From positions 1 to 64,000 of the forward strand of contig JAEANN010000044.1 of the NCBI GenBank assembly GCA_016841965.1: a stretch of DNA of 64,000 nt. The letters run 5' to 3'. Positions 19,173 to 37,284 of this stretch are shown piece by piece. The position numbers and the translations under genes are program-made. This DNA comes from Candidatus Roseilinea mizusawaensis (GTDB lineage Bacteria; Chloroflexota; Anaerolineae; J036; Brachytrichaceae). The notes below the pieces were generated by a model. The model was given only the letters and a program-made list of their open reading frames with translations. It was not told the DNA's origin and did not search any database. The stretch's first letter is position 1, and every line of letters starts with the position of its first letter.

Positions 19173-19318
19173 GACGTTGCCTTCTCTGCGCGAGGATGCA
19201 CACCAACTATACAACCGCAGCCGGGCATGGCTAGATTAAAATGCCTGGCCGTGATGATGGTCTTCATCCGGCCCAACACACTGTGGCGCCCAGGTGCAGG
19301 CCATCCTTGTGGAGGATT

Positions 19319-20602
19319 ATGAACCGCCTACGTTTGAATGCTGCGTTCCCGGCCCGCGTATTAACCCTTGCTGTCGCGCTGACCATGGCGCTGATGGGGC
19401 TGGCCGGCTGTGGTGGGGCGGCCCAGCCGCCCTCGGTTGTCATCACCTCGCCGGTTGCCAATTCAACGGTGGAAGCAAACACCCCCCTGACGATTCAGGG
19501 GGTGGTCAGCGGCGAGAACCTGCCCGCTGCCAACATTACCCGCATCGAAGTGGTGCTCGACGGCTTGCCACTTGCCAACGCGCCGGTGGGCGAGGAGGCC
19601 AGGAATGCAGCTCAGTTGCCCATCGTGCTCGAATGGACGCCGACTACAGCCGGCGCTCACTTCATCCAGTTTAACGTCTACGGCCCGCAGGATGTGCTGA
19701 TCGCCAAATCGGACGCAGTGGTGTTTAGGGTGAACCTTGCTGCGCCGACGGCCACAGTTCCGCCTCCGACGCCACAACCGTCCCCTCAGCCAACTGAAAT
19801 GCTGCCGCCTCCGACTGCGACACCAGACGCAGCCGCTCAGCCGGATGCATCCACAATCACCGCGACTACCGCGACCCCTGCGACAGGGACAGCGCTGCCA
19901 GACAGCGCACTCGCAACACCTACGCTTACCGTGATGGCTGAAATTGTCAATGTGCGTGAGGGGCCGGGCACAAATTACCCGGCCATCGGCCAGTTGCAGA
20001 ATGGGCAGACGGCTGTGGTGACAGGCAAAAGCGCTGATGGCGCATGGTGGCAGATCGCTTTTCAAAATGGCAACGGCTGGGTGTTTGGCGAGCTGGTTGA
20101 GGCGAATGCTGCAGCGCAAAGTGTGACTGTGGCGCAAGCCCCACCGGCGCCAACCAGCCCGCCGGCCCCTGCTGCACCGGCCACACCCGTTGCACAAGCC
20201 ACTGCCACCCCAGCCGGCCCGGTCTGCGATGAGTCGTCGCCCTATTGGCGCGGGTCGAATCCTAACTATCCCTTCTGCGCTACACAGGACCCTGTGTGGG
20301 GTGATCCACAAGGCGACTGGAACGTGTACGACAACGGTAAAGACATTCCGCTCTCCATCTCGTGGGCCATGTTCGGGCCGAATATCGCTGAGGTGCGCAT
20401 TCACTTCACCCAAAGCAATAACGCCTGTGACTTCGCCCGCCCGGCCCAGCGCGAGGTCGATCAGGTTGTGCCGGCTGCCGGCACGTACAACTTCAATGTG
20501 CTTGACTTCCCTTATGGGGGCACCTTCTGGGTTTACTTCACCGTGCGCCTGACCGATGGCCGGGTTGTGCAATGGGGGCAGAAGAAACTGTGCATTCGCT
20601 AG
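19319..20602 (+). CDS. lipoprotein with Ig-like, SH3b and C-terminal domains (copy 1)
   Basis: A 427-residue exported lipoprotein. The signal peptide ends in a lipobox, LMGLAGC, near residue 30. An Ig-like domain follows (VVITSPVANSTVEANTPLTI to about residue 140), then a Pro/Thr-rich linker, an SH3b domain (VNVREGPGTNYPAIGQLQNG to WVFGELVE), a second Pro/Ala linker, and a C-terminal beta domain with two cysteines (SPYWRGSNPNYPFC to KKLCIR). It would sit on the outer face of the membrane and bind wall or surface polymer. GGAGG just before ATG 19319 fixes the start. It is a paralogue of the next gene. Confidence 0.85.
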   Translation: MNRLRLNAAFPARVLTLAVALTMALMGLAGCGGAAQPPSVVITSPVANSTVEANTPLTIQGVVSGENLPAANITRIEVVLDGLPLANAPVGEEARNAAQLPIVLEWTPTTAGAHFIQFNVYGPQDVLIAKSDAVVFRVNLAAPTATVPPPTPQPSPQPTEMLPPPTATPDAAAQPDASTITATTATPATGTALPDSALATPTLTVMAEIVNVREGPGTNYPAIGQLQNGQTAVVTGKSADGAWWQIAFQNGNGWVFGELVEANAAAQSVTVAQAPPAPTSPPAPAAPATPVAQATATPAGPVCDESSPYWRGSNPNYPFCATQDPVWGDPQGDWNVYDNGKDIPLSISWAMFGPNIAEVRIHFTQSNNACDFARPAQREVDQVVPAAGTYNFNVLDFPYGGTFWVYFTVRLTDGRVVQWGQKKLCIR

Positions 20603-20673: not shown

Positions 20674-22050
20674 ATGAGTCAACGGCGATGGATGGCGTCA
20701 TGCTTGCAACTGTCGCGCATCAGATCGGTCGCAGCATGGATCGCTGCGCTGATGATCTTGTCGGCCTGCGCCGGGGCTGCTCAGCCTCCTGTTGTCACCA
20801 TCACATCGCCGGCTATGAATGCCGAAGTGCCGGTCGATGTCGAGATGTTGATTCAAGGCGTCGTCACCGGTGAGAACATCGTGCGGGTGGAGATTCTCAT
20901 CGATGGCTTGCAAATGGCGCTGCTGTCGGTGCGCGACACCAGCCAGGGCGTCTCTAACTTCCCCGTCCAGGCAGTGTGGACCCCGACACTGGCCGGAACC
21001 CACATTATCCAGTTCAACGTGTACGGGCCGGAGGATCAATTGTTGGTGACCTCCGAGCCGGTTATCTTTACTGCCCGGGCAGGATTGGCTGTGCCTGTGC
21101 CGACTGCAACCGAAGCCCCGCCGCCGGCGACACCCACTGCACCGCCCACTCCGACCACGGCGCCCACCCAGCAGCCGCCTTCGACGCAAGCAGACCGGCC
21201 ATCTGGTCAAACTGCTACCCCTGAGCCGACGCCGACTACTGCAGCCGGCGCTGATGTGCGCGCCCAGCCGACCGCCACATCACCCGTTGCACCTGCCAGT
21301 GCGCCCGCGAGTGCGCCCGCGAGTGCGCCCGGCCAGCCCAGCCTGACGGTTGCGGTTGACATTCTCAATATCCGCGAGGGGCCAGGCACGAACTATGGGA
21401 TTATCGGCCAATTGACGCTGGGCGCTGCTGCGCCCGTGCGCGGCAAGAGCGCCGACGGGCAATGGTGGCAGATCAGTTTTCCTGCCGGCCCGAACGGCGT
21501 TGGCTGGGTGTTTGCAGAGTTGGTGCAGGTGACCGATGCAGCTCGCGCGGTGGCTGTGGCAGCCGCCCCGCCGACCCCAACGCGCGCGCCGACCACAGTC
21601 GCGGTCGGTCAGTCCACGCCGGCCCAATCAACGCCCACCCCACCGCCCAGGGTCTATGGAGGTGCGCCTTGCACAGAGGCTTCACCCAACTGGCGCGGCG
21701 CCAATCCCAACTATCCGTTCTGTGTCGATCAAGATGTGGTTTGGGGCGACCCACAAGGGGACTGGGCCATCTATCCAAACGGCCAGAGCATTCCGTTGTC
21801 TATTTCGTGGAATGTGTACGGCGAGAACATTGATGAAATCTGGCTGCGCTTCGATTCGACAGATGGCGTGTGTCCGTTTAACCGGCCGGCCCGTGCGCCG
21901 ATCAGCCTGCAATTCCCGCAGGGGGCGGCTTCGTTTCGCTTTAATGCCGGCGAGTATCCCGACGGCGCAACCTTCCGTGTGTTTCTGATGATCAAGCTGA
22001 AGGATGGCCGCTGGGTGCAGTTTGGCGACAAACGGCTGTGCATTAACTGA
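20674..22050 (+). CDS. lipoprotein with Ig-like, SH3b and C-terminal domains (copy 2)
   Basis: A 458-residue paralogue of the preceding gene with the same domain order: lipobox LMILSAC, Ig-like domain (VVTITSPAMNAEVPVDVEML), a Pro/Thr/Gln linker, SH3b (LNIREGPGTNYGIIGQLTLG), and a C-terminal domain starting SPNWRGANPNYPFC and ending KRLCIN. The linker has a 12-base repeat giving SAPASAPASAPG. The pair arose by tandem duplication. It faces the opposite yabN/mazG gene with a 16-base gap. Confidence 0.85.
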   Translation: MSQRRWMASCLQLSRIRSVAAWIAALMILSACAGAAQPPVVTITSPAMNAEVPVDVEMLIQGVVTGENIVRVEILIDGLQMALLSVRDTSQGVSNFPVQAVWTPTLAGTHIIQFNVYGPEDQLLVTSEPVIFTARAGLAVPVPTATEAPPPATPTAPPTPTTAPTQQPPSTQADRPSGQTATPEPTPTTAAGADVRAQPTATSPVAPASAPASAPASAPGQPSLTVAVDILNIREGPGTNYGIIGQLTLGAAAPVRGKSADGQWWQISFPAGPNGVGWVFAELVQVTDAARAVAVAAAPPTPTRAPTTVAVGQSTPAQSTPTPPPRVYGGAPCTEASPNWRGANPNYPFCVDQDVVWGDPQGDWAIYPNGQSIPLSISWNVYGENIDEIWLRFDSTDGVCPFNRPARAPISLQFPQGAASFRFNAGEYPDGATFRVFLMIKLKDGRWVQFGDKRLCIN

Positions 22051-27326: not shown

Positions 27327-27683
27327 ATGAGAACTGATTTCGCGTTCATCGGTGTCATGCTCATCACGGCTTTTCTGCTGATGGGCGTCGCGGTCTTTGC
27401 CGCATCCCTTCTGCGCCCCAAAAAGCCCAGCCAAGCCAAGCTTGAAACCTATGAGTGTGGTATGGAAACCGTCGGTGATGCCTGGGTGCAGTTCCGCGTT
27501 CAATACTACATCTTTGCCCTCATCTTTGTGTTATTCGATGTGGGTGGTGTGCTACTGTTTCCCTTTGCAGTCGCGTTCAATGTCGTGCCGATCTATGCCG
27601 TGCTGGTCGTAAGCCTGTTTTTGGGCACACTCATGGCCGCTTTGCTGTACGCCTGGCGCAAGGGCGCGTTGCAATGGGATTGA
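27327..27683 (+). CDS. nuoA: NADH-quinone oxidoreductase subunit A
   Basis: A 118-residue membrane subunit of complex I with three helices. The loop KLETYECGMETVGDAWVQF carries the conserved Cys and acidic residues near the quinone site, and IFVLFDVGGVLLFPFAV is the conserved second helix. nuoB, C, D and I, which usually follow nuoA, are not in this window. A hairpin at 27782-27806 separates it from nuoH, so it may be transcribed alone. Confidence 0.93.
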   Translation: MRTDFAFIGVMLITAFLLMGVAVFAASLLRPKKPSQAKLETYECGMETVGDAWVQFRVQYYIFALIFVLFDVGGVLLFPFAVAFNVVPIYAVLVVSLFLGTLMAALLYAWRKGALQWD

Positions 27684-27781
27684 TCATGTCGTGGCTTGCG
27701 TGAGTCTTGAGTGCTGCTGGTTACTGCAAACTGAACATCCGATAAACTGTTGTTGCTAAAATCGCGAAACAAAACATTGTC

Positions 27782-27806
27782 GCCCCGCGCGTTGAGTGCG
27801 GGGCGC
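27782..27806 (+). terminator. possible terminator or attenuator hairpin before nuoH
   Basis: CGCCCCGC, a 9-base loop, then GCGGGGCG, followed by CTTGCTG without a long T-tract. It lies between nuoA and nuoH. Confidence 0.4.
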
Positions 27807-27851
27807 TTGCTGTAAGTGGGCGAACATGTTTCGCCAGAGGTGGGTAAGCTT

Positions 27852-29135
27852 ATGTCGCTGATTGACACAATCAACAACTTGTTGAAGATCATCGGGGATG
27901 CTGTGGCGAATCTGGTTCAGAACATCCTAGGCCCCGGCCTGGGCGCCGACTTGATCGTTATGGGGCTTGGAGCATTGGCCTTGTGCACCGTGGCCGCGCT
28001 GACCTTCATGGCCATGACGTGGGCCGAGCGCAAAGTGGTGGCCCGCATCCAGAGCCGGGTTGGGCCAAATCAGGCCGGCCCATTTGGGCTGTTGCAGCCC
28101 ATTGCCGACGGCATCAAGATGTTCACCAAAGAAGACACCACCCCGACCAGCGCCGACCGCTGGGTGTACAACGCCGCGCCCCTCATCATTGCCACGTTTG
28201 CGCTCCTGACCTTCGCAGTGTTCCCCATCGCGCCAGGAGTGGTTGGCACCAACCTCAATATCGGTGTGTTCTTCGTTATCGCAGTCGGCTCGGCCAGCAC
28301 AGTGGCCATATTGATGGCCGGGTGGGGCAGCAACAACAAATATTCGCTGCTGGGCGCTTTCCGCACGGTAGCCCAGTTGGTGGGATACGAAGTGCCCATG
28401 CTGCTCAATGTCATCCCGGTGATCGTGTTGGCCGGCTCAATGGGACTGGCCGACATTGTGCAGCGCCAGACGCTCGCGGACGGCAACCCCGGTATCCCCT
28501 TCATTGTTTACCTCCCCCTGTCTGCACTGGCGTTTTTCATCGCCGGCGTGGCCGAAACCGGCCGTTCACCGTTTGACCTGCTCGAGGCCGAGTCGGAGAT
28601 TGTAGCTGGCTTCCACGTCGAATACAGCGGCATGAAATTTGCCCTGTTCATGCTGGGCGAATACGTCAACACGCTGGCCGTGTCGATTGTATTTGCCACG
28701 TTGTTCCTGGGCGGCTACGCCGGGCCGATCCTGCCGCCTTATCTCTGGCTGGCGCTCAAGACAGCGCTGGTCTTCTTCGTCTTCATGTGGCTGCGCGGCA
28801 CGCTGCCTCGCGTTCGCGTCGACCAACTGATGTCCTTGAACTGGAAGGTGCTGGTGCCCATGTCGGTCGTCAACATCATCGCCGTGATAATCCTGGCCAA
28901 GGTGTTCGTCACCAGCCCCGGCCTTCAGGCCGCCAATGGCGGCATTCTGGTGACGCCGGCGACACAGGCAGCCATTCTGTTTGTGGCCAACATCGCGATT
29001 TTGCTGTCTGGCCTGGCTATTGTAGCTCGCCGTGCGCGCGTGCTGCGCCTGGCCGAAGAGAGGCAACTCGAAAGCCGACGCCAGGCCAATCGCGCCGCTG
29101 TGTCGGGCTTCGCCGGAGGCGCCCCCGCCAAATGA
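27852..29135 (+). CDS. nuoH: NADH-quinone oxidoreductase subunit H
   Basis: A 427-residue subunit with eight predicted helices that forms the quinone entry channel of complex I. AERKVVARIQSRVGPNQAGP and GLLQPIADGIKMFTKED are the family signatures, and AETGRSPFDLLEAESEIVAG is the conserved cytoplasmic loop rich in acidic residues. The C-terminal 60 residues are longer than usual, with two extra hydrophobic segments and a charged tail. Start is ATG 27852. A heptad array lies between it and nuoJ. Confidence 0.95.
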   Translation: MSLIDTINNLLKIIGDAVANLVQNILGPGLGADLIVMGLGALALCTVAALTFMAMTWAERKVVARIQSRVGPNQAGPFGLLQPIADGIKMFTKEDTTPTSADRWVYNAAPLIIATFALLTFAVFPIAPGVVGTNLNIGVFFVIAVGSASTVAILMAGWGSNNKYSLLGAFRTVAQLVGYEVPMLLNVIPVIVLAGSMGLADIVQRQTLADGNPGIPFIVYLPLSALAFFIAGVAETGRSPFDLLEAESEIVAGFHVEYSGMKFALFMLGEYVNTLAVSIVFATLFLGGYAGPILPPYLWLALKTALVFFVFMWLRGTLPRVRVDQLMSLNWKVLVPMSVVNIIAVIILAKVFVTSPGLQAANGGILVTPATQAAILFVANIAILLSGLAIVARRARVLRLAEERQLESRRQANRAAVSGFAGGAPAK

Positions 29136-29140
29136 TTGTC

Positions 29141-29205
29141 GATTGGGGATTTCGGATTTGAGATTGAGCAAAATCCAAAATCCAAAATCCAAGATCCAAA
29201 ATCGG
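29141..29205. repeat. heptad array between nuoH and nuoJ
   Basis: Four GATTxxG-type units followed by CAAAATC, CAAAATC, CAAAATC, CAAGATC and CAAAATC. The two blocks are inverted copies, so the RNA can fold into a hairpin. It ends eight bases before the nuoJ start. Confidence 0.9.
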
Positions 29206-29212
29206 TGCAGAG

Positions 29213-29899
29213 ATGACCATTTCACAGATTCTGTTCATCGTGATCGCTCTTGTCGTGCTGGGCGGCGGCGTGATGGTGGTGACCGCGCGCAATCTGTTCC
29301 ATGCGGCGCTGTTTCTGATCGTGTCGTTCTTTGGCGTGACCGGCCTGTATGTTCTGCTCGACGCCGGCTTCTTCGCTGCCGCGCAGTTTCTGGTGTACAT
29401 CGGCGCCATTTCGATCCTGGTGATCTTCGCCGTGATGTTGACACGCGGCGTGCAGCAAGCCCAGCCGGCCAACTCACAATGGCCGGCTGCGCTGATTACC
29501 AGTGTGATTGTGTTTGTCATCATGGCAATCATGCTTGGCCCGATTGCTGTCACGATTGGCGATCGCCAGTTCGGCAATCTGAGCTGGCCGAATATCGTTG
29601 AAGGGCAGACCGTGCCGGCTGTGCCCGACGACAGCTTGGTGCGCCTGGGCCAGTCGTTTGTTGATTTCAATCAATACGGCGCCGCATTTCTGCTCACGGC
29701 AGTGCTGATTCTGGTGGCAATGGTCGGCGCGATCTGGGTGGCGCGAGATCGCACGCTGAAAGATGTAATGGAAGAGCGGGCTGAGCTGGCAGCCGAAGAA
29801 GCGCAGGAAGCCATGCTAGCCGGGCCGGCGCAGCCAGCGTTGCCGGTGGGCGCAGCGCAGGTCGCCGAGCCAACCGCCGAGCCTGCTGTGCGCCATTGA
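29213..29899 (+). CDS. nuoJ: NADH-quinone oxidoreductase subunit J
   Basis: A 228-residue subunit with five membrane helices (FIVIALVVLGGGVMVVTARN, LIVSFFGVTGLYVLLDAGFF, LVYIGAISILVIFAVML). GAISILVIFAVML is the conserved third helix. The C-terminal 50 residues (EERAELAAEEAQEA, then an Ala/Pro-rich tail) lie in the cytoplasm and are longer than common NuoJ. The start ATG 29213 comes right after a heptad array and a GCAGAG sequence. Confidence 0.93.
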   Translation: MTISQILFIVIALVVLGGGVMVVTARNLFHAALFLIVSFFGVTGLYVLLDAGFFAAAQFLVYIGAISILVIFAVMLTRGVQQAQPANSQWPAALITSVIVFVIMAIMLGPIAVTIGDRQFGNLSWPNIVEGQTVPAVPDDSLVRLGQSFVDFNQYGAAFLLTAVLILVAMVGAIWVARDRTLKDVMEERAELAAEEAQEAMLAGPAQPALPVGAAQVAEPTAEPAVRH

Positions 29900-29939
29900 A
29901 TTTGACCCAGGAGACATATAGGGTGATTGAGGTCGCGCA

Positions 29940-30257
29940 ATGTTGAATGGAATACCCCTTTACTGGTTCTTGCTGATCTCGGCGGCCCTTTTCTGCATCG
30001 GGCTGTATGGCGTGCTGGCGCGCAAAAATGCCATCGCCATCTTGATGGGCGTTGAACTGATGCTGAACGCTGTCAACATCAACCTTCTGGCTTTTTGGCG
30101 CTATGTTGCCCCGAGTTCTCCCGCCGGCCTGGCGTTTGCCGCCTTTATCTTCGTCATCGCAGCCGCCGAAGCCGCCATCGGTCTCGCGCTGATGATTTCG
30201 GTGTACCGTAACACGCGGAGTGTCGACCCGGACAAACTCGACTCGATGAAACTATAA
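29940..30257 (+). CDS. nuoK: NADH-quinone oxidoreductase subunit K
   Basis: A 105-residue three-helix subunit of the proton path. The second helix AILMGVELMLNAVNINLLAF carries the two conserved acidic residue positions, and IFVIAAAEAAIGLALMIS is the third helix with its Glu. Length is normal. The upstream gap contains GGAGA as a ribosome-binding site. Confidence 0.95.
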   Translation: MLNGIPLYWFLLISAALFCIGLYGVLARKNAIAILMGVELMLNAVNINLLAFWRYVAPSSPAGLAFAAFIFVIAAAEAAIGLALMISVYRNTRSVDPDKLDSMKL

Positions 30258-30353
30258 CGGGCGTCGTAGACATTGTAGAGGTTGAGCCACTGACTCATTC
30301 AGCTTGTGAGAGGTTGCCTGGATGTCTGAGTGACCACGTGGCCGAGTTGCACC

Positions 30354-32543
30354 ATGAGCAGAGAACTACTTCAAACCCTCACCTGGCTTGCGCCGCTGCC
30401 GCCGCTGCTGGCCTTTGCCATCATCGCGCTGTTCACACATCGGCATCGTCAGACCAGTTCGACGATCGCTGTTGGCGCAATGATTACGTCGGCCTTGCTG
30501 GCCTTTATTGTGTTCTTCAACGTGATCGGCATGCCTGATCTAGGCAAGTACCCCATCCGTCAGTCTATTCCGTGGATTCCAACCGGCGAGACTTTCCTGC
30601 GCATGGGCATTGCCGTCGATCCGCTGGGCGCCACCTTTTTGTTCATGGTGCCGCTCACGTGTTCGCTCATCTTTATCTACAGCACCGGCTACATGGCCTC
30701 TGACCCGCTGTACAGCCGGTTCTTTGCCTTCCTCAGCCTGTTCGGCGGCTCCATGATGGGGCTGGTCGTGTCAGACAGTCTGCTGGCCCTGTTTATCTTC
30801 TGGGAGCTGATGGGCTTCTGCTCCTACTCACTAATCGGTTTCTTTTATCGTAAACCCTCGGCCTATAAAGCTGCGGTCAAGGCTTTCATGACCACCCGCG
30901 TCGGCGACATGTTGCTGTTGCTGGGCATGGTGTATCTGTACAGCCAGACCGGCACACTCAACTTCTTTGACATCCTGCACAACGAAGAGGCGCTGCGTCT
31001 GCTGGCAGAGACGCCGGCGGTGCTGGGGTTGGGCATCTCGGCTGCCGGCATGATCGGCATCCTCATTTTCGGCGGCACCGTCGGCAAGAGCGCGCAGTTC
31101 CCGCTGCATGTGTGGTTGCCCGATGCGATGGAAGGCCCTACGCCAGTCAGCGCCATGATCCATGCTGCCACGATGGTCAGCGCCGGCGTGTTCATGTTGC
31201 TGCGCTTCTTTCCCCTCTTTCAATTCGCCGGCCACGATAACGTTGCCTTTACCATTGTTGGGGTGATCGGCGCAATTACGGCGTTGCTCGGCGCGACCAT
31301 TGCGGTAGCGCAGTACGACATCAAGCGCGTGTTGGCCTTCTCCACCATCAGCCAGCTTGGCTTCATGGTGGCGGCGGTTGGCATTGGGGCATATATTGCC
31401 GCCGGCTTCCACCTGCTCACCCATGCCTTCTTCAAGGCGCTGTTGTTCCTCGGCTCCGGCTCGGTGATTCACGGCGTCGAGCATGGCCATCATCATGTGG
31501 CGCATCAGGCTTCATCAGGCTCGTCAGGCTCGCATGGTTCAGCGCACGCCGCGCATGAAGAACATGAAAAACCTCAAGAACACGCCGAACACGAGTTCGA
31601 CCCACAGGATATGCGCAACATGGGCGGCCTGCGTCACAGAATGCCGATCACCTTCTGGACTTTCTTGATCGGTGGCCTGGCGCTCATGGGTTTTCCCTTC
31701 ATCACAGCCGGCTTCTGGAGCAAAGACGAAATCTTTGCCGACGCTTTCCATGCAATGAATGAAGGCAATCCGTTGGCGCTGATTGTCTTCCTGGTGCTCG
31801 TGTTCTCGGCCACTCTGACGGCCTTCTACACCACCCGCCAGATCGCCCTGACCTTTTTTGGCCAGCCGCGCAGCGAAGCCGCCAAACACGCCGCCGAATC
31901 TGCGCCCAGCATGACAATTCCTCTGATTGTGCTGGCGGTGTTTGCCCTGTTCCTCGGTTTCATCAACGTGCCAAAGGACTTCCCGGTGTTTGGAGCGGTG
32001 CTGGGCGACGGCGCATACTGGCTGAAGAACTTCCTGATGTCTGGTCTGGTGGAGAAAGAACCGACGATTCCTTTCAATATCATTCCGGTGCTGTTCTCGC
32101 TGGCTGTGGTGGCAGTCGGTCTGGGGCTGGGGTATGTGGTGTATCTGCGCCGGCCTTTGCAAGCCGGCCAGACCGACCCGGTCGAGAAGCTGGGCGGCCT
32201 GTTCGCTTTCCTGCACAACCGCTGGTATTTCGACGCGCTGTACCGCGCCATCTTCATCCAACCCATGCAGTGGGCAGCCGACAACTACACCCGGCTGGTG
32301 GACAAGGGCGTCATCGACGCCGTGCTTGAAGGCGGCTATCGCGCCGGCAGCGTTGTGGCCGGCTGGTTCAAGACTTTCGATCGCGTGGTGGTGACCGGCA
32401 TTTCAGACTTGATTGGCAACACCATTCGCGACATTGGCCGCGAGGGCCGCGAGTTGCAGAGCGGTCAGGTGCAGAACTACCTGCTCTCTGGCCTGATCGC
32501 CGCTGTGGTGCTCATCGTGTTCTTCCTGGTGTTCTCCCGGTAA
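30354..32543 (+). CDS. nuoL: NADH-quinone oxidoreductase subunit L with His-rich insertion and long C-terminal arm
   Basis: A 729-residue antiporter-like subunit, the distal proton pump of complex I. The Glu of TM5 (FIFWELMGFCSYSLIGF) and the Lys of TM7 (GGTVGKSAQFPLHVWLPDA) are present. Between SVIHGVEH and DPQDMRNMGGLR (residues about 376-418) lies a His/Ser/Glu-rich insertion (HGHHHVAHQASSG to EEHEKPQEHAEH). The C-terminal amphipathic arm from ALYRAIF to VQNYLL is about 84 residues, apparently longer than in E. coli NuoL. The start ATG 30354 is chosen over GTG 30330 because the first helix begins there. Confidence 0.93.
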   Translation: MSRELLQTLTWLAPLPPLLAFAIIALFTHRHRQTSSTIAVGAMITSALLAFIVFFNVIGMPDLGKYPIRQSIPWIPTGETFLRMGIAVDPLGATFLFMVPLTCSLIFIYSTGYMASDPLYSRFFAFLSLFGGSMMGLVVSDSLLALFIFWELMGFCSYSLIGFFYRKPSAYKAAVKAFMTTRVGDMLLLLGMVYLYSQTGTLNFFDILHNEEALRLLAETPAVLGLGISAAGMIGILIFGGTVGKSAQFPLHVWLPDAMEGPTPVSAMIHAATMVSAGVFMLLRFFPLFQFAGHDNVAFTIVGVIGAITALLGATIAVAQYDIKRVLAFSTISQLGFMVAAVGIGAYIAAGFHLLTHAFFKALLFLGSGSVIHGVEHGHHHVAHQASSGSSGSHGSAHAAHEEHEKPQEHAEHEFDPQDMRNMGGLRHRMPITFWTFLIGGLALMGFPFITAGFWSKDEIFADAFHAMNEGNPLALIVFLVLVFSATLTAFYTTRQIALTFFGQPRSEAAKHAAESAPSMTIPLIVLAVFALFLGFINVPKDFPVFGAVLGDGAYWLKNFLMSGLVEKEPTIPFNIIPVLFSLAVVAVGLGLGYVVYLRRPLQAGQTDPVEKLGGLFAFLHNRWYFDALYRAIFIQPMQWAADNYTRLVDKGVIDAVLEGGYRAGSVVAGWFKTFDRVVVTGISDLIGNTIRDIGREGRELQSGQVQNYLLSGLIAAVVLIVFFLVFSR

Positions 32544-32612: not shown

Positions 32613-34163
32613 ATGGATTTCATCAAAGCGAATCTGCTCACGATCATCACCTTCACACCGCTAATCGGCATGGCGCTGGTGCTGCTCACCCCACAGCAGC
32701 GCACCCGGCTGATCCAGTGGGGATCGATCGCCTTCAGCCTAATCCCGCTGGGTCTGGCCCTTTTCATGTGGGCCGGTTACGACATCACACAGGCCGGCTT
32801 CCAGTTTCGCCAGCAAGCCGTGTGGTTCCCGCAAGTGAACGCCAGCTATCATGTCGGCGTAGACGGCATCAGCATGCCCCTGATCGTGCTGACAACCTTC
32901 CTGCAACCGCTGGCTCTGCTCATGTCGTTGCGCATCGAGCGCGGCGTCAAGGCGTTCTTTGCCTTGTTCTTCCTGCTCGAAACTGCGGTGTTGGGCTGCT
33001 TTGTCGCGCTCGACCTGCTGCTGTTCTTCTTGTTCTACGAGATCAGCCTGGTGCCGATGTATTTCCTGATCGCCCAGTGGGGCGGCCAAAATCGGCGCTA
33101 TGCCTCGTTCAAGTTCATCCTCTATACCATGTTCGCCAGCCTTGGCATGTTGCTGGCGATTCAGGTGATCGGCATCGCCTCGGGCAGCTTCGACCTGCTG
33201 TACCTGTTCTCTGATCTAGGCCGGCCTTTCACCGGCAACAACACCATCAACGCCCTGTTCGAGGACGCCAACACCTGGAAGAGCGTGGCCTTCTTTGCCT
33301 TCACCATCGCTTTTGCCCTAAAAGTTCCCATCTGGCCGTTGCACACCTGGCTGCCCGATGCGCACACCGAAGCGCCGACCGGCGGCTCGATGATCCTGGC
33401 CGGTATTCTGCTCAAGCTGGGCGGCTACGGCTTCCTGCGTATGGTCATCCCGTTATTCCCCGATGCCGCTGCGCAGTTTGCGCCGCTGTTGGCCCTGTTG
33501 GCATTGCTCAGCATCGTGCTTGGCGCATTCGCCGCCTGGGGCCAGAACGACTTCAAGAAACTGGTGGCCTACTCCTCGGTAAACCATATGGGCTTTGTGG
33601 CCATGGGCGTCGCGGCGGCGGCTGTGATGGCGGCCGACGCCACTCGGCATACTGATGCCGTCATCGCAGCCAGCGGCGCAACGTTGCAAATGGTCACCCA
33701 TGGCCTGTCGTCGGCGGCCATGTTTGCGCTGGTCGGCGTGGTGTACGAGCGCGCTCACACCCGCGATCTCACCCAATTCGGTGGCCTGTGGTCGATTATG
33801 CCGATCTATGGCGCAATCCTGATTTTCTGCTCGATGGGGTCACTCGGTTTGCCTGGCCTGAGTGGTTTTGTGAGTGAATTCATGGTGGTGCGCGGCGCCT
33901 GGCCGGCCCTGACCCCCTACGTCATCCTGGCGATGGCCGGTCTGCTCGTCACCGGCATTTATATCCTCAAGTCGCTGCAAAAAGTGCTGCACGGCCCGCT
34001 GGGCGAAGCATGGCGGCACCATCCGTTGCCGGATATCCACTGGACCGAAACGCTGGCGGTTGCCCCGCTCATGGTGATGATGCTGGCGCTGGGTGTATAT
34101 CCATTGCTGGCGCTAAATGTGATCAATGTCGGCGCGCTGGACATCTTCAGACTGTTGCCCTGA
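32613..34163 (+). CDS. nuoM: NADH-quinone oxidoreductase subunit M, copy 1
   Basis: A 516-residue antiporter-like subunit with about fourteen helices. Glu143 in FFLFYEISLVPMYFLIAQWG (TM5) and Lys237 in FTIAFALKVPIWPLHTWLPD (TM7) are both present, as are ILLKLGGYGFLRM and the C-terminal LSGFVSEFM with its Glu. All residues needed for proton transfer are in place. The ATG follows directly after a heptad array. It is the first of two nuoM genes in tandem. Confidence 0.95.
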   Translation: MDFIKANLLTIITFTPLIGMALVLLTPQQRTRLIQWGSIAFSLIPLGLALFMWAGYDITQAGFQFRQQAVWFPQVNASYHVGVDGISMPLIVLTTFLQPLALLMSLRIERGVKAFFALFFLLETAVLGCFVALDLLLFFLFYEISLVPMYFLIAQWGGQNRRYASFKFILYTMFASLGMLLAIQVIGIASGSFDLLYLFSDLGRPFTGNNTINALFEDANTWKSVAFFAFTIAFALKVPIWPLHTWLPDAHTEAPTGGSMILAGILLKLGGYGFLRMVIPLFPDAAAQFAPLLALLALLSIVLGAFAAWGQNDFKKLVAYSSVNHMGFVAMGVAAAAVMAADATRHTDAVIAASGATLQMVTHGLSSAAMFALVGVVYERAHTRDLTQFGGLWSIMPIYGAILIFCSMGSLGLPGLSGFVSEFMVVRGAWPALTPYVILAMAGLLVTGIYILKSLQKVLHGPLGEAWRHHPLPDIHWTETLAVAPLMVMMLALGVYPLLALNVINVGALDIFRLLP

Positions 34164-34202: not shown

Positions 34203-35741
34203 ATGAACTTCTCAATACCTGTGCTCACACTCATCATGCTGGCGCCGGTGATCGGCGCAGCCGTTATTTTGATCACGCCGCGCGAGCGGACCGACATCAT
34301 CAAGACAGTCGCCGCCAGCGCCTTTGCAGTGTCCCTGCTGTTGTCGTTCTTTGTCTTCGCCGGCTACGACCGCGCCGTCGGTGGTTTCCAGTTTGCCGAG
34401 CAAACAAGCTGGATCCCCGAACTGGGCATCGGCTATCATGTCGCGGTCGATGGGTTCAGCGCACCCATGTTGCTGCTGACCGCCATCGTGGCTTTCTGCG
34501 CCGTGCTGGTGTCGTGGAAGCTGGATGACCGGCCCCGCGAGTTCTTCAGCTTTTTGCTGATGCTGGTGGCCGGCGTGTTCGGCGCGTTCATGTCGCTCGA
34601 CATCTTCCTCTTCCTCATCTTTTACGAGCTGGTGCTGTTCCCCGTCTACGTGCTCATCGCAGGGTGGGGCAGCAAGAACCGCGAATATGCGGCCATGAAG
34701 CTGACCATCTACCTGTTCGTCGGCTCGCTGGTCGCCATCGTCGGCCTGCTGGTGGTGTACTTCCAGGCCGGCGCCACCTTCGACTTCGTCAAGCTGCAAC
34801 AAGGCGTGCTGGCCCTCGCGCCCGAAAAGTTCGAGCAAATCAAGCCCTGGTTCATTGCTATCTTCATCGGCTTTGGCGTGCTGGCCTCTATCTGGCCCTT
34901 GCACAACTGGTCGCCCGACGGTTACGCTGCTGCGCCTACCGCCGTCTCGATGTTGCATGGCGGCGTCCTCAAAGCCACCGGCGCTTACGCCGCGCTGCGC
35001 TTCGGCGTGCAGTTGATGCCCGAAGCGGCTCAGTACTACCTGCCGGTGATCGTGTTCCTGTGCTTGGCGAATGTAATTTACGCCGGCCTGATCGCTTTCC
35101 GCCAGACCGATCTCAAGTACATCATCGGATTCTCGTCGGTGGCGCACCTGGGTTTGGTGTTGCTGGGCATCACGTCGCTGAATGAATTTGGCCTCAACGG
35201 GGCCGGCCTCGAACTCTTTGCCGGCGGTGTGATGACCGGTTTGATGTTCGCCCTGGTCGGCATGATCTATGAGCGCGCCCATCTCCGTGACATCGAAGAA
35301 CTCAACGGCATGTTCCGTGTCATGCCGTTGGCCGCCATCGGCTTTGTGATCGGTTCTCTGGCTGCGATGGGCATGCCCGGCCTGCCCGGCTTCCCCGCTG
35401 AAGTGATGATCTTCATGGGGCTATGGCGCGCCGCTGAAACTCCCAGTCTCATCTTCCCCGGCCAGCTCAACTGGTGGTTTAGCTGGATCGCAATTGCCGG
35501 GGTCCTCACTGTCGTCATCACTGCCGCCTGGACGTTGCGCGTGGCCTACAAAGTCTACTTCAGCGAGCCAAAGAATCCCGAATTGCAAAAACTGCCCGGC
35601 CTGGATGCGCTCGAAAAGTTCTCCATCGTCTTCATGTGCGGCGTGCTTATTGTTGTCGGCGTCATGCCTAACACAGTGATGCAGGTCATTCAGGTTGGCG
35701 TTCAAACTATCCTGGCTTCGCTGACTCGAGCAAGCGGTTGA
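34203..35741 (+). CDS. nuoM: NADH-quinone oxidoreductase subunit M, copy 2 (TM7 Lys replaced)
   Basis: A 512-residue antiporter-like subunit, clearly NuoM by VAVDGFSAPMLLLTAIVAF, FLIFYELVLFPVYVLIAGWG with Glu142, and LPGFPAEVMIF. Aligned with copy 1 through the PLHxW motif, the TM7 lysine position (FALKVPIWPLHTW) reads FGVLASIWPLHNW, so it is Leu227 rather than Lys. The TM8 lysine is kept (Lys257 in GGVLKATGAY). The two copies differ strongly, so the duplication is old. It forms part of a complex I with an extra pump subunit. Confidence 0.9.
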   Translation: MNFSIPVLTLIMLAPVIGAAVILITPRERTDIIKTVAASAFAVSLLLSFFVFAGYDRAVGGFQFAEQTSWIPELGIGYHVAVDGFSAPMLLLTAIVAFCAVLVSWKLDDRPREFFSFLLMLVAGVFGAFMSLDIFLFLIFYELVLFPVYVLIAGWGSKNREYAAMKLTIYLFVGSLVAIVGLLVVYFQAGATFDFVKLQQGVLALAPEKFEQIKPWFIAIFIGFGVLASIWPLHNWSPDGYAAAPTAVSMLHGGVLKATGAYAALRFGVQLMPEAAQYYLPVIVFLCLANVIYAGLIAFRQTDLKYIIGFSSVAHLGLVLLGITSLNEFGLNGAGLELFAGGVMTGLMFALVGMIYERAHLRDIEELNGMFRVMPLAAIGFVIGSLAAMGMPGLPGFPAEVMIFMGLWRAAETPSLIFPGQLNWWFSWIAIAGVLTVVITAAWTLRVAYKVYFSEPKNPELQKLPGLDALEKFSIVFMCGVLIVVGVMPNTVMQVIQVGVQTILASLTRASG

Positions 35742-35754
35742 AGGGTGATCAATC

Positions 35755-37284
35755 ATGGCGTACTCTGAATTTGACCCATCGCAGTTTCTTGCTATCGCGC
35801 CGGAAATTGGGCTGGTGCTGTGGGCGCTGGTCATTCTGGCCGTGGATATGTTCTCGGCTCGGCGCATCGCCCGTCGCACGCTGGGCATTCTGGCCGCAGC
35901 CGGCATGGCCGCTGTGTTGATCCTGTCGCTGTTGATCGCTGTTCCCCCAGCCGGCGTCATGCCTCAGATCGGCAGCGACCCGCGCAGCGTTCTCGGCGGC
36001 ATGATTCGTCATGACCTGTTCGCATTTGTCTTTCGGATCATCTTTATCCTGGCCGGCATTTTGACCTGCCTGGTGTCGATCGACTTCCGCCCGGCCCGCG
36101 CCGGCGGCGAGTATTACGCCCTGCTTATCCTGGCCACCATGGCCATGGGGCTGATGGCCGCCAGCAACGACCTTATCATGCTATATCTGGCTACCGAGGC
36201 GTCGAGTTTTGCGCTGTACCTGCTGGCCGGCTTCATGCGTGACACGCCCCGCAGCGCCGAGGCTGGCATCAAGTATTTTGTGTTTGGCGCCGTCACATCC
36301 AGCATCATGCTCTATGGTCTGGCGTTGATCTTCGGCCTGAGCGGCGGGCAAACCCACTACGGCGCAGTGGCGCAGGTTCTGGCCGGCGCCGACACGCGCA
36401 TGCTGGCTGTGCTGGCGATGCTACTCGTTATCGCCGGCTTTGCGTTCAAGACGTCGGCGGTGCCCTTCCATTTCTGGACCCCCGATGTGTATGAGGGCGC
36501 TCCCACGCCATTTGTCGGTTTCCTCAGCACCGCCTCGAAAGCGGCCGGCTTCGCCATCCTGATGCGCTTCCTCGTATACGTCTTCGAGCCGCCCTTCAGC
36601 CAGGCCTCGGTGGTGTGGGTGCAACTCATGCAGCCCTTGGCCATCCTCACCATGTTCCTGGGCAACCTGCTGGCGATCACACAAAGCAACATCAAGCGCA
36701 TGCTGGCGTATTCCAGCATCGCCCAAGCCGGCTACATGCTGATCGGCGTCACCGCGTTCGGCTTTGCCTACAGCCGGCAGTCACCTGAAGCCGCCGCTGA
36801 CGCAGTGGCGGCTGTGATCTTCTACGCCGCCACCTACATGCTTACCAACATTGCTGCCTTTGCAGTCGTCAGCATCGTTTCGCAGCGCGTGGGTAGCGAG
36901 CAGATCAGCGCCTTCAATGGCTTGGGCCGGCGCGCTCCTTACACCGCCCTTGGCATGACCGCTGCGATGCTCAGCCTGCTCGGCGCGCCGCCGCTGGTAG
37001 GCTTTGTCGGCAAGCTGTTCCTGTTCCGCGCCGCCATCAGCGACGATTTGCTGCTGCTGGTGGCGATCGGTGTGGTCAATGTGCTTATCTCGGTGTTCTA
37101 TTACCTGGGTATCGTGCGGGCCATGTATGTCGAGCGATCACCCGATGACGAACAGCCGATTCGGATACCGGCGGCAACCGCCTGGGTCGTGTTGGTGTCC
37201 AGCGCCGCCATTTTGTTCATCACAGTCGCGTCCATGCAGTTCTGGTCTGTTGCGTTGGATGCCGCCAAAGCGCTATTGAACTGA
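35755..37284 (+). CDS. nuoN: NADH-quinone oxidoreductase subunit N
   Basis: A 509-residue antiporter-like subunit placed nearest the NuoA/J/K/H side of the membrane arm. TM5 Glu in LYLATEASSFALYLLAGF and TM7 Lys in IAGFAFKTSAVPFHFWTPDV are present, with KRMLAYSSIAQAGYML and GAPPLVGFVGKLFLF. ATG 35755 is 13 bases after the nuoM2 stop and GGGTGATC lies before it. It is the last nuo gene; atpZ starts 34 bases later. Confidence 0.95.
   Translation: MAYSEFDPSQFLAIAPEIGLVLWALVILAVDMFSARRIARRTLGILAAAGMAAVLILSLLIAVPPAGVMPQIGSDPRSVLGGMIRHDLFAFVFRIIFILAGILTCLVSIDFRPARAGGEYYALLILATMAMGLMAASNDLIMLYLATEASSFALYLLAGFMRDTPRSAEAGIKYFVFGAVTSSIMLYGLALIFGLSGGQTHYGAVAQVLAGADTRMLAVLAMLLVIAGFAFKTSAVPFHFWTPDVYEGAPTPFVGFLSTASKAAGFAILMRFLVYVFEPPFSQASVVWVQLMQPLAILTMFLGNLLAITQSNIKRMLAYSSIAQAGYMLIGVTAFGFAYSRQSPEAAADAVAAVIFYAATYMLTNIAAFAVVSIVSQRVGSEQISAFNGLGRRAPYTALGMTAAMLSLLGAPPLVGFVGKLFLFRAAISDDLLLLVAIGVVNVLISVFYYLGIVRAMYVERSPDDEQPIRIPAATAWVVLVSSAAILFITVASMQFWSVALDAAKALLN

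Follow-up and report, generated by a model that had tools for sequence, protein, structure and literature searches.

A complex I NuoM without the TM7 lysine belongs to a widespread clade in which the central base may have moved

The window, a stretch of 64,000 nucleotides from Candidatus Roseilinea mizusawaensis (contig JAEANN010000044.1), carries on its forward strand a complex I gene cluster whose open reading frames read in the order nuoA-H-J-K-L-M1-M2-N. The genes nuoA, H, J and K (27327..30257) were named from sequence, and nuoL (30330..32543, all axis residues present), nuoM1 (32613..34163, canonical, with the TM7 Lys237 at 33321-33323) and nuoN (35755..37284, canonical axis residues) were assigned from open reading frame, profile and alignment. 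The second nuoM gene, nuoM2 (34203..35741, 512 aa), was recognized from its open reading frame, a match to TIGR01972, an AlphaFold2 model and Foldseek. Two nuoM genes are thus found between nuoL and nuoN, and a comparison of segment lengths across loci places an insertion of 26 residues in the C-terminal lateral helix of NuoL (residues 662-687, 32313..32390), the feature by which 2M (four-pump) complexes are marked (PMC9040806; PMC7117926). In its order nuoL-M1-M2-N, its NuoL insertion and its occurrence in Chloroflexota, the locus resembles known 2M complexes I, for which cases in Chloroflexi (PMC7117926) and in Chloroflexus aggregans (PMC8004040) are on record. A yield of five protons per NADH has only been hypothesised for them in the literature. 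The 2M complex I itself reportedly goes back to work by Chadwick and colleagues in 2018. NuoL of the window also has a histidine-rich loop (31479-31598, 11 His in 40 residues), at which NuoM and NuoN are gapped in the four-protein alignment, and two similar tandem genes further upstream (19241-20602 and 20674-22050) encode secreted-looking proteins that are apparently paralogues. Beyond the window, the source genome holds further NuoM-like genes: contig C12 carries a Lys-type NuoM next to a nuoL-like gene, together with a nuoF-type gene, and several more antiporter-like subunits are encoded on contigs C8, C30 and C53.

NuoM2 fits its family by profile and by fold. It scores 427.2 bits against TIGR01972 (cut-off 263.8), its AlphaFold2 model has a pLDDT of 94.8, and the best Foldseek matches of this model are NuoM/ND4 chains with a TM-score of about 0.9. 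It combines the NuoM/ND4 fold with Glu142 in TM5 (34626..34628, present in 221 of 223 lysine-less sequences), the canonical partner of the TM7 lysine, and with Glu400 in TM12 (35400..35402), the terminal axis residue, which is kept by alignment. Like canonical NuoM/ND4 of E. coli and Paracoccus, it also has a His at column 315 and a TM8 Lys, shifted here by one residue. In contrast to these proteins, it has an extra His on TM8, follows the TM7 break with WSPxG where they have WLPDA, and carries Leu227 (CTG, 34881..34883) in place of the TM7 lysine. The earlier note had read Leu in copy 2 opposite Lys237 in copy 1, which is borne out by the codon and by two alignments, one with the window's NuoM1, NuoL and NuoN and a separate one with E. 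coli NuoL, NuoM and NuoN. The counterparts of Leu227 are Lys237 of NuoM1 and, in E. coli, Lys234 of NuoM, Lys229 of NuoL and Lys217 of NuoN; in all these proteins the column lies five residues ahead of a conserved Pro, and no other Lys of NuoM2 falls on it in either alignment. In the AlphaFold2 model, Leu227 sits where TM7 breaks (residues 216-225 helical, 226-235 non-helical). The missing lysine is a residue usual in NuoM and stands outside the profile's definition; by sequence, NuoM2 is best classed as a NuoM variant rather than a canonical NuoM, the TM7 Lys being missing throughout the sister clade.

Other residues of NuoM2 depart from the canonical pattern as well. Where both the TM5 Glu and the TM8 Lys had been taken as retained, the former is in place and the latter only partly so: Lys257 (34971..34973; Lys at 257 in 33/223 lysine-less sequences) stands one residue before the usual TM8 Lys of NuoM (column 258, Ala here) and matches the NuoN position. 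Gly341 (35223..35225) replaces the TM11 His of other NuoM (Gly in 27/223 lysine-less and 0/158 Lys-type sequences), a loss limited to the window's own family and accompanied there by Glu337. Since mutating the equivalent His has a mild effect (PMC9802314), this loss need not matter, and the NuoM2 of the window's family, without the TM11 His and with a shifted TM8 Lys, may be further diverged. Neither the TM11 loss nor the TM8 His252 (CAT, 34956..34958), which we propose as the replacement base and which occurs in 209/223 lysine-less and 0/158 Lys-type sequences, figured in the earlier note.

The change at position 227 belongs to a conserved trait. Among 381 aligned NuoM, 223 are without Lys at this position, and 213 of these 223 have Leu. 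NuoM2 orthologues from the class of the source organism, at 43-98% identity, never have Lys here, and two congeners retain the same CTG codon across 160 and 230 DNA differences. Because the codon is shared by the congeners and Lys is absent from 223 of 381 NuoM, neither an assembly error nor a chance change can account for Leu227. A sequencing, assembly or alignment error can be regarded as refuted, given non-Lys residues in 223 sequences from many genomes and the fixed spacing to the Pro-x-His-x-Trp motif. The dN/dS of NuoM2 against the two congeners is about 0.02-0.04, and the gene is thus under strong purifying selection; this, along with the persistence of the trait in 223 sequences, rules out a decayed duplicate.

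The clade of lysine-less NuoM is widespread, being found in Chloroflexota, in the phylum of a Myxococcales MAG and in others. A contig scan yielded at least 586 confirmed relatives of NuoM2, the best 80 of which include MAGs listed as Dehalococcoidia, SAR202, Clostridiales, Deltaproteobacteria, Goldiibacteriota, FCPU426, Coatesbacteria, Hydrogenedentes, Sumerlaeota, Chthonomonas, Myxococcales, Bdellovibrio and Gemmatimonadetes, labels that are no proof of taxon; the relatives surveyed do not include the 2M complexes of Nitrospira. With a DNA pattern made for the lysine-less form that has His252, matches came from 35/201 Chloroflexota genomes and from 32/141 in the phylum to which a Myxococcales MAG belongs (a reversed control pattern gave zero matches in both sets), and ten matched loci of the latter phylum, when read out, all had Leu and His. 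Many Chloroflexota genomes have a second, separate NuoM locus elsewhere, and in three MAGs, which may be incomplete, only lysine-less NuoM was found (G448, G451, G457). The NuoM1 matches of seven genomes (G008, G011, G017, G021, G023, G026, G027) were each flagged for one inner TAG stop, maybe from an alignment overrunning the gene end. In the open-access literature, which takes in few subscription papers and not the 2M paper of 2018, we found no earlier report of the lysine-less clade or of a base swap, and the open-access 2M literature yielded no statement on the TM7 lysine of 2M complexes.

Across Chloroflexota, lysine-less NuoM occurs in L-M1-M2-N loci and also as the sole NuoM of L-M-N loci, so that the trait is not bound to the 2M arrangement. 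The lateral-helix segment of NuoL differs accordingly, measuring 80-85 aa in 40/41 loci that combine the two NuoM types, against 55-57 aa, without the 26-residue insertion, in all 73 loci with lysine-less NuoM alone. All 139 of 139 loci retain the NuoL axis residues (Glu, Lys, His, Lys), and nearly all retain those of NuoN, so that NuoM alone is altered. Judged by the single-M loci, lysine-less NuoM would act as middle pump in complexes of the ordinary kind; the present M2 belongs to a clade that also occurs alone, a point of difference from earlier accounts of 2M complex I.

The basic residues follow a strict pattern of one out of four. The 381 NuoM carry Lys227 (n=158), His252 (n=209), Lys148 (n=13) or His227 (n=1), and none has two bases or no base among these four positions; after reduction to less than 90% identity, 105, 169, 6 and 1 sequences remain, respectively. 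A Fisher test on the counts takes no account of relatedness among the sequences and carries no weight here. Column 148, in TM5, is Val in NuoM2 (34644..34646) and corresponds by alignment to Ser150 of E. coli NuoL. Lys148 is present in 13/14 sequences that lack both Lys227 and His252, and in 0/367 others. The 14th (L185) has His227 with Ala252, and its close relatives have L227 and H252, a configuration that reads as a reciprocal move of the base. Sequences without Lys227 and His252 had at first suggested that the base is dispensable, an idea ruled out by the finding that all but one carry Lys148 and the other His227; five of the first six share Lys148, and later members agree. The suggestion that a compensating residue exists nearby is thus strongly supported by sequence, with His252 on TM8 as the usual candidate, else Lys148 (three times) or His227 (once). 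As side observations, the nuoN of L185 (also of L221 and L245), from the species with His227 in its NuoM, encodes Glu for the TM8 Lys and Gln for the PFH histidine, and the separate Lys-type NuoM of the His227 species (L236) also misses its usual TM8 Lys. Two Lys148 sequences (nuoM2 of L072 and L083) have a unique Glu256 on TM8 too.

These shifts were placed on a tree of 89 NuoM sequences from which the trait columns (145-150, 224-230 and 250-260) had been left out; the tree is unrooted and its supports come from a quick search. All Lys227 sequences fall on one side of a branch with an SH-aLRT of 100. Well supported branches require Lys148 to have arisen at least three times, and His227 arose once, in each case inside the His252 group. 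Within this group, His252 disappeared on four occasions, with Lys148 taking its place in three and His227 in one. Because NuoM1 and NuoM2 of the 2M loci lie on opposite sides of this deep split, they are old, separate types. Leu at 227 is probably derived, since NuoL, NuoN and E. coli NuoM all carry the TM7 Lys.

The proposed site of the replacement base has a precedent in NuoL. His252 and His254 of E. coli NuoL share their spacing, 25 residues from the TM7 position and 14 to an Arg at the end of TM8, and occupy the same place in the ungapped comparison, one gapped alignment setting them one residue apart. In simulations of E. coli NuoL, the TM8 His254 in one state hydrogen-bonds TM5 Ser150 and has a water link to Lys229 of TM7; the same two states of the histidine are seen in Mrp structures (PMC13358369). 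The three columns between which the base appears to swap are thus already linked within NuoL, and by analogy this contact geometry may carry over to NuoM. NuoM2 resembles NuoL/ND5 and MrpA, with their TM8 histidine switch, in that its TM8 bears a His equally far from the TM7 break; unlike both, which keep the TM7 Lys, it is without that residue and has the NuoM-type TM12 Glu. A comparable relocation of the switch histidine to a neighbouring helix has been proposed for E. coli formate hydrogenlyase (PMC13358369), although enzyme and subunit are others and the residue replaced there is not the TM7 Lys.

On these grounds we consider it likely that NuoM2, in its 2M complex I, is a complete pump subunit of the NuoM (ND4) type with a central base that has moved, and thus probably a functioning variant rather than a dead spacer. 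Canonical NuoM has as its base the TM7 lysine, paired with the TM5 Glu, and in the NuoM2 clade, with Leu at the TM7 position, it would be His252 of TM8. A likely relay would run from Glu142 (TM5) through His252 and Lys257 (both TM8) and His315 to Glu400 (TM12), and in side lineages the base would have moved again, to Lys148 (TM5) or His227 (TM7). We infer that in NuoM all four positions lie in a single pocket, that protons are carried by the base and that one pumped proton is added by NuoM2. The pKa of His is below that of Lys, and the Glu-base pair may thus work differently. We know of no activity or structure for any lysine-less NuoM.

As an alternative to a compensating residue, the earlier note had raised a spacer or signal-relaying subunit in place of an extra pump. 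Such a non-pumping subunit would lengthen the arm, a role in keeping with the position of NuoM2 beside a canonical NuoM1 in a 2M complex and with the essential TM7 Lys of tested NuoM (PMC9802314). Yet ordinary three-pump loci with a short NuoL helix have this type as their only NuoM, and a spacer role is therefore unlikely; the reappearance of a nearby base each time one is lost, the purifying selection on NuoM2 and the intact axes of NuoL and NuoN speak against it as well.

The lysine-less type with its TM8 His might translocate or sense another ion, such as Na+, its TM8 being now MrpA-like in bearing both His and Lys, and the TM8 of MrpA indeed has an added His (PMC7419157); but NuoL, which is regarded as a proton path, likewise has a TM8 His, and we hold this to be very unlikely. 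It is also conceivable that no replacement is needed, that Lys166, Lys305 and Glu142, which nearly every sequence of either NuoM type retains, suffice, and that His252 and Lys148 mark lineages and have no link to the lost lysine. Given the strict one-of-four pattern and the match of all four independent losses of His252 (4/4) by a new base, such a coincidence appears highly improbable. We thus retain the moved base as the preferred reading.

In both E. coli and Paracoccus, function is lost when the TM7 Lys of NuoM is mutated (PMC3046159; PMC9802314), and this lysine, essential in tested complex I enzymes, is central to current pumping models. The widespread natural NuoM without it, whose stand-in was itself replaced four times independently, amount to evolutionary double mutants, and they pose the question of whether an exact base position is required or merely any base near the TM5 Glu. 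Based on them, E. coli NuoM K234L combined with L259H or M150K is predicted to keep the pump alive. In these 2M complexes, NuoM2 is a type that separated from NuoM1 in ancient times, rather than a late duplicate of it. More tentatively, and at less than even confidence, the base may be movable throughout a large NuoM clade, the TM5 Glu being served by a TM8 His, a TM5 Lys or a TM7 His with different coupling energetics, and many bacteria may keep such a complex I beside a canonical one or within a four-pump complex.
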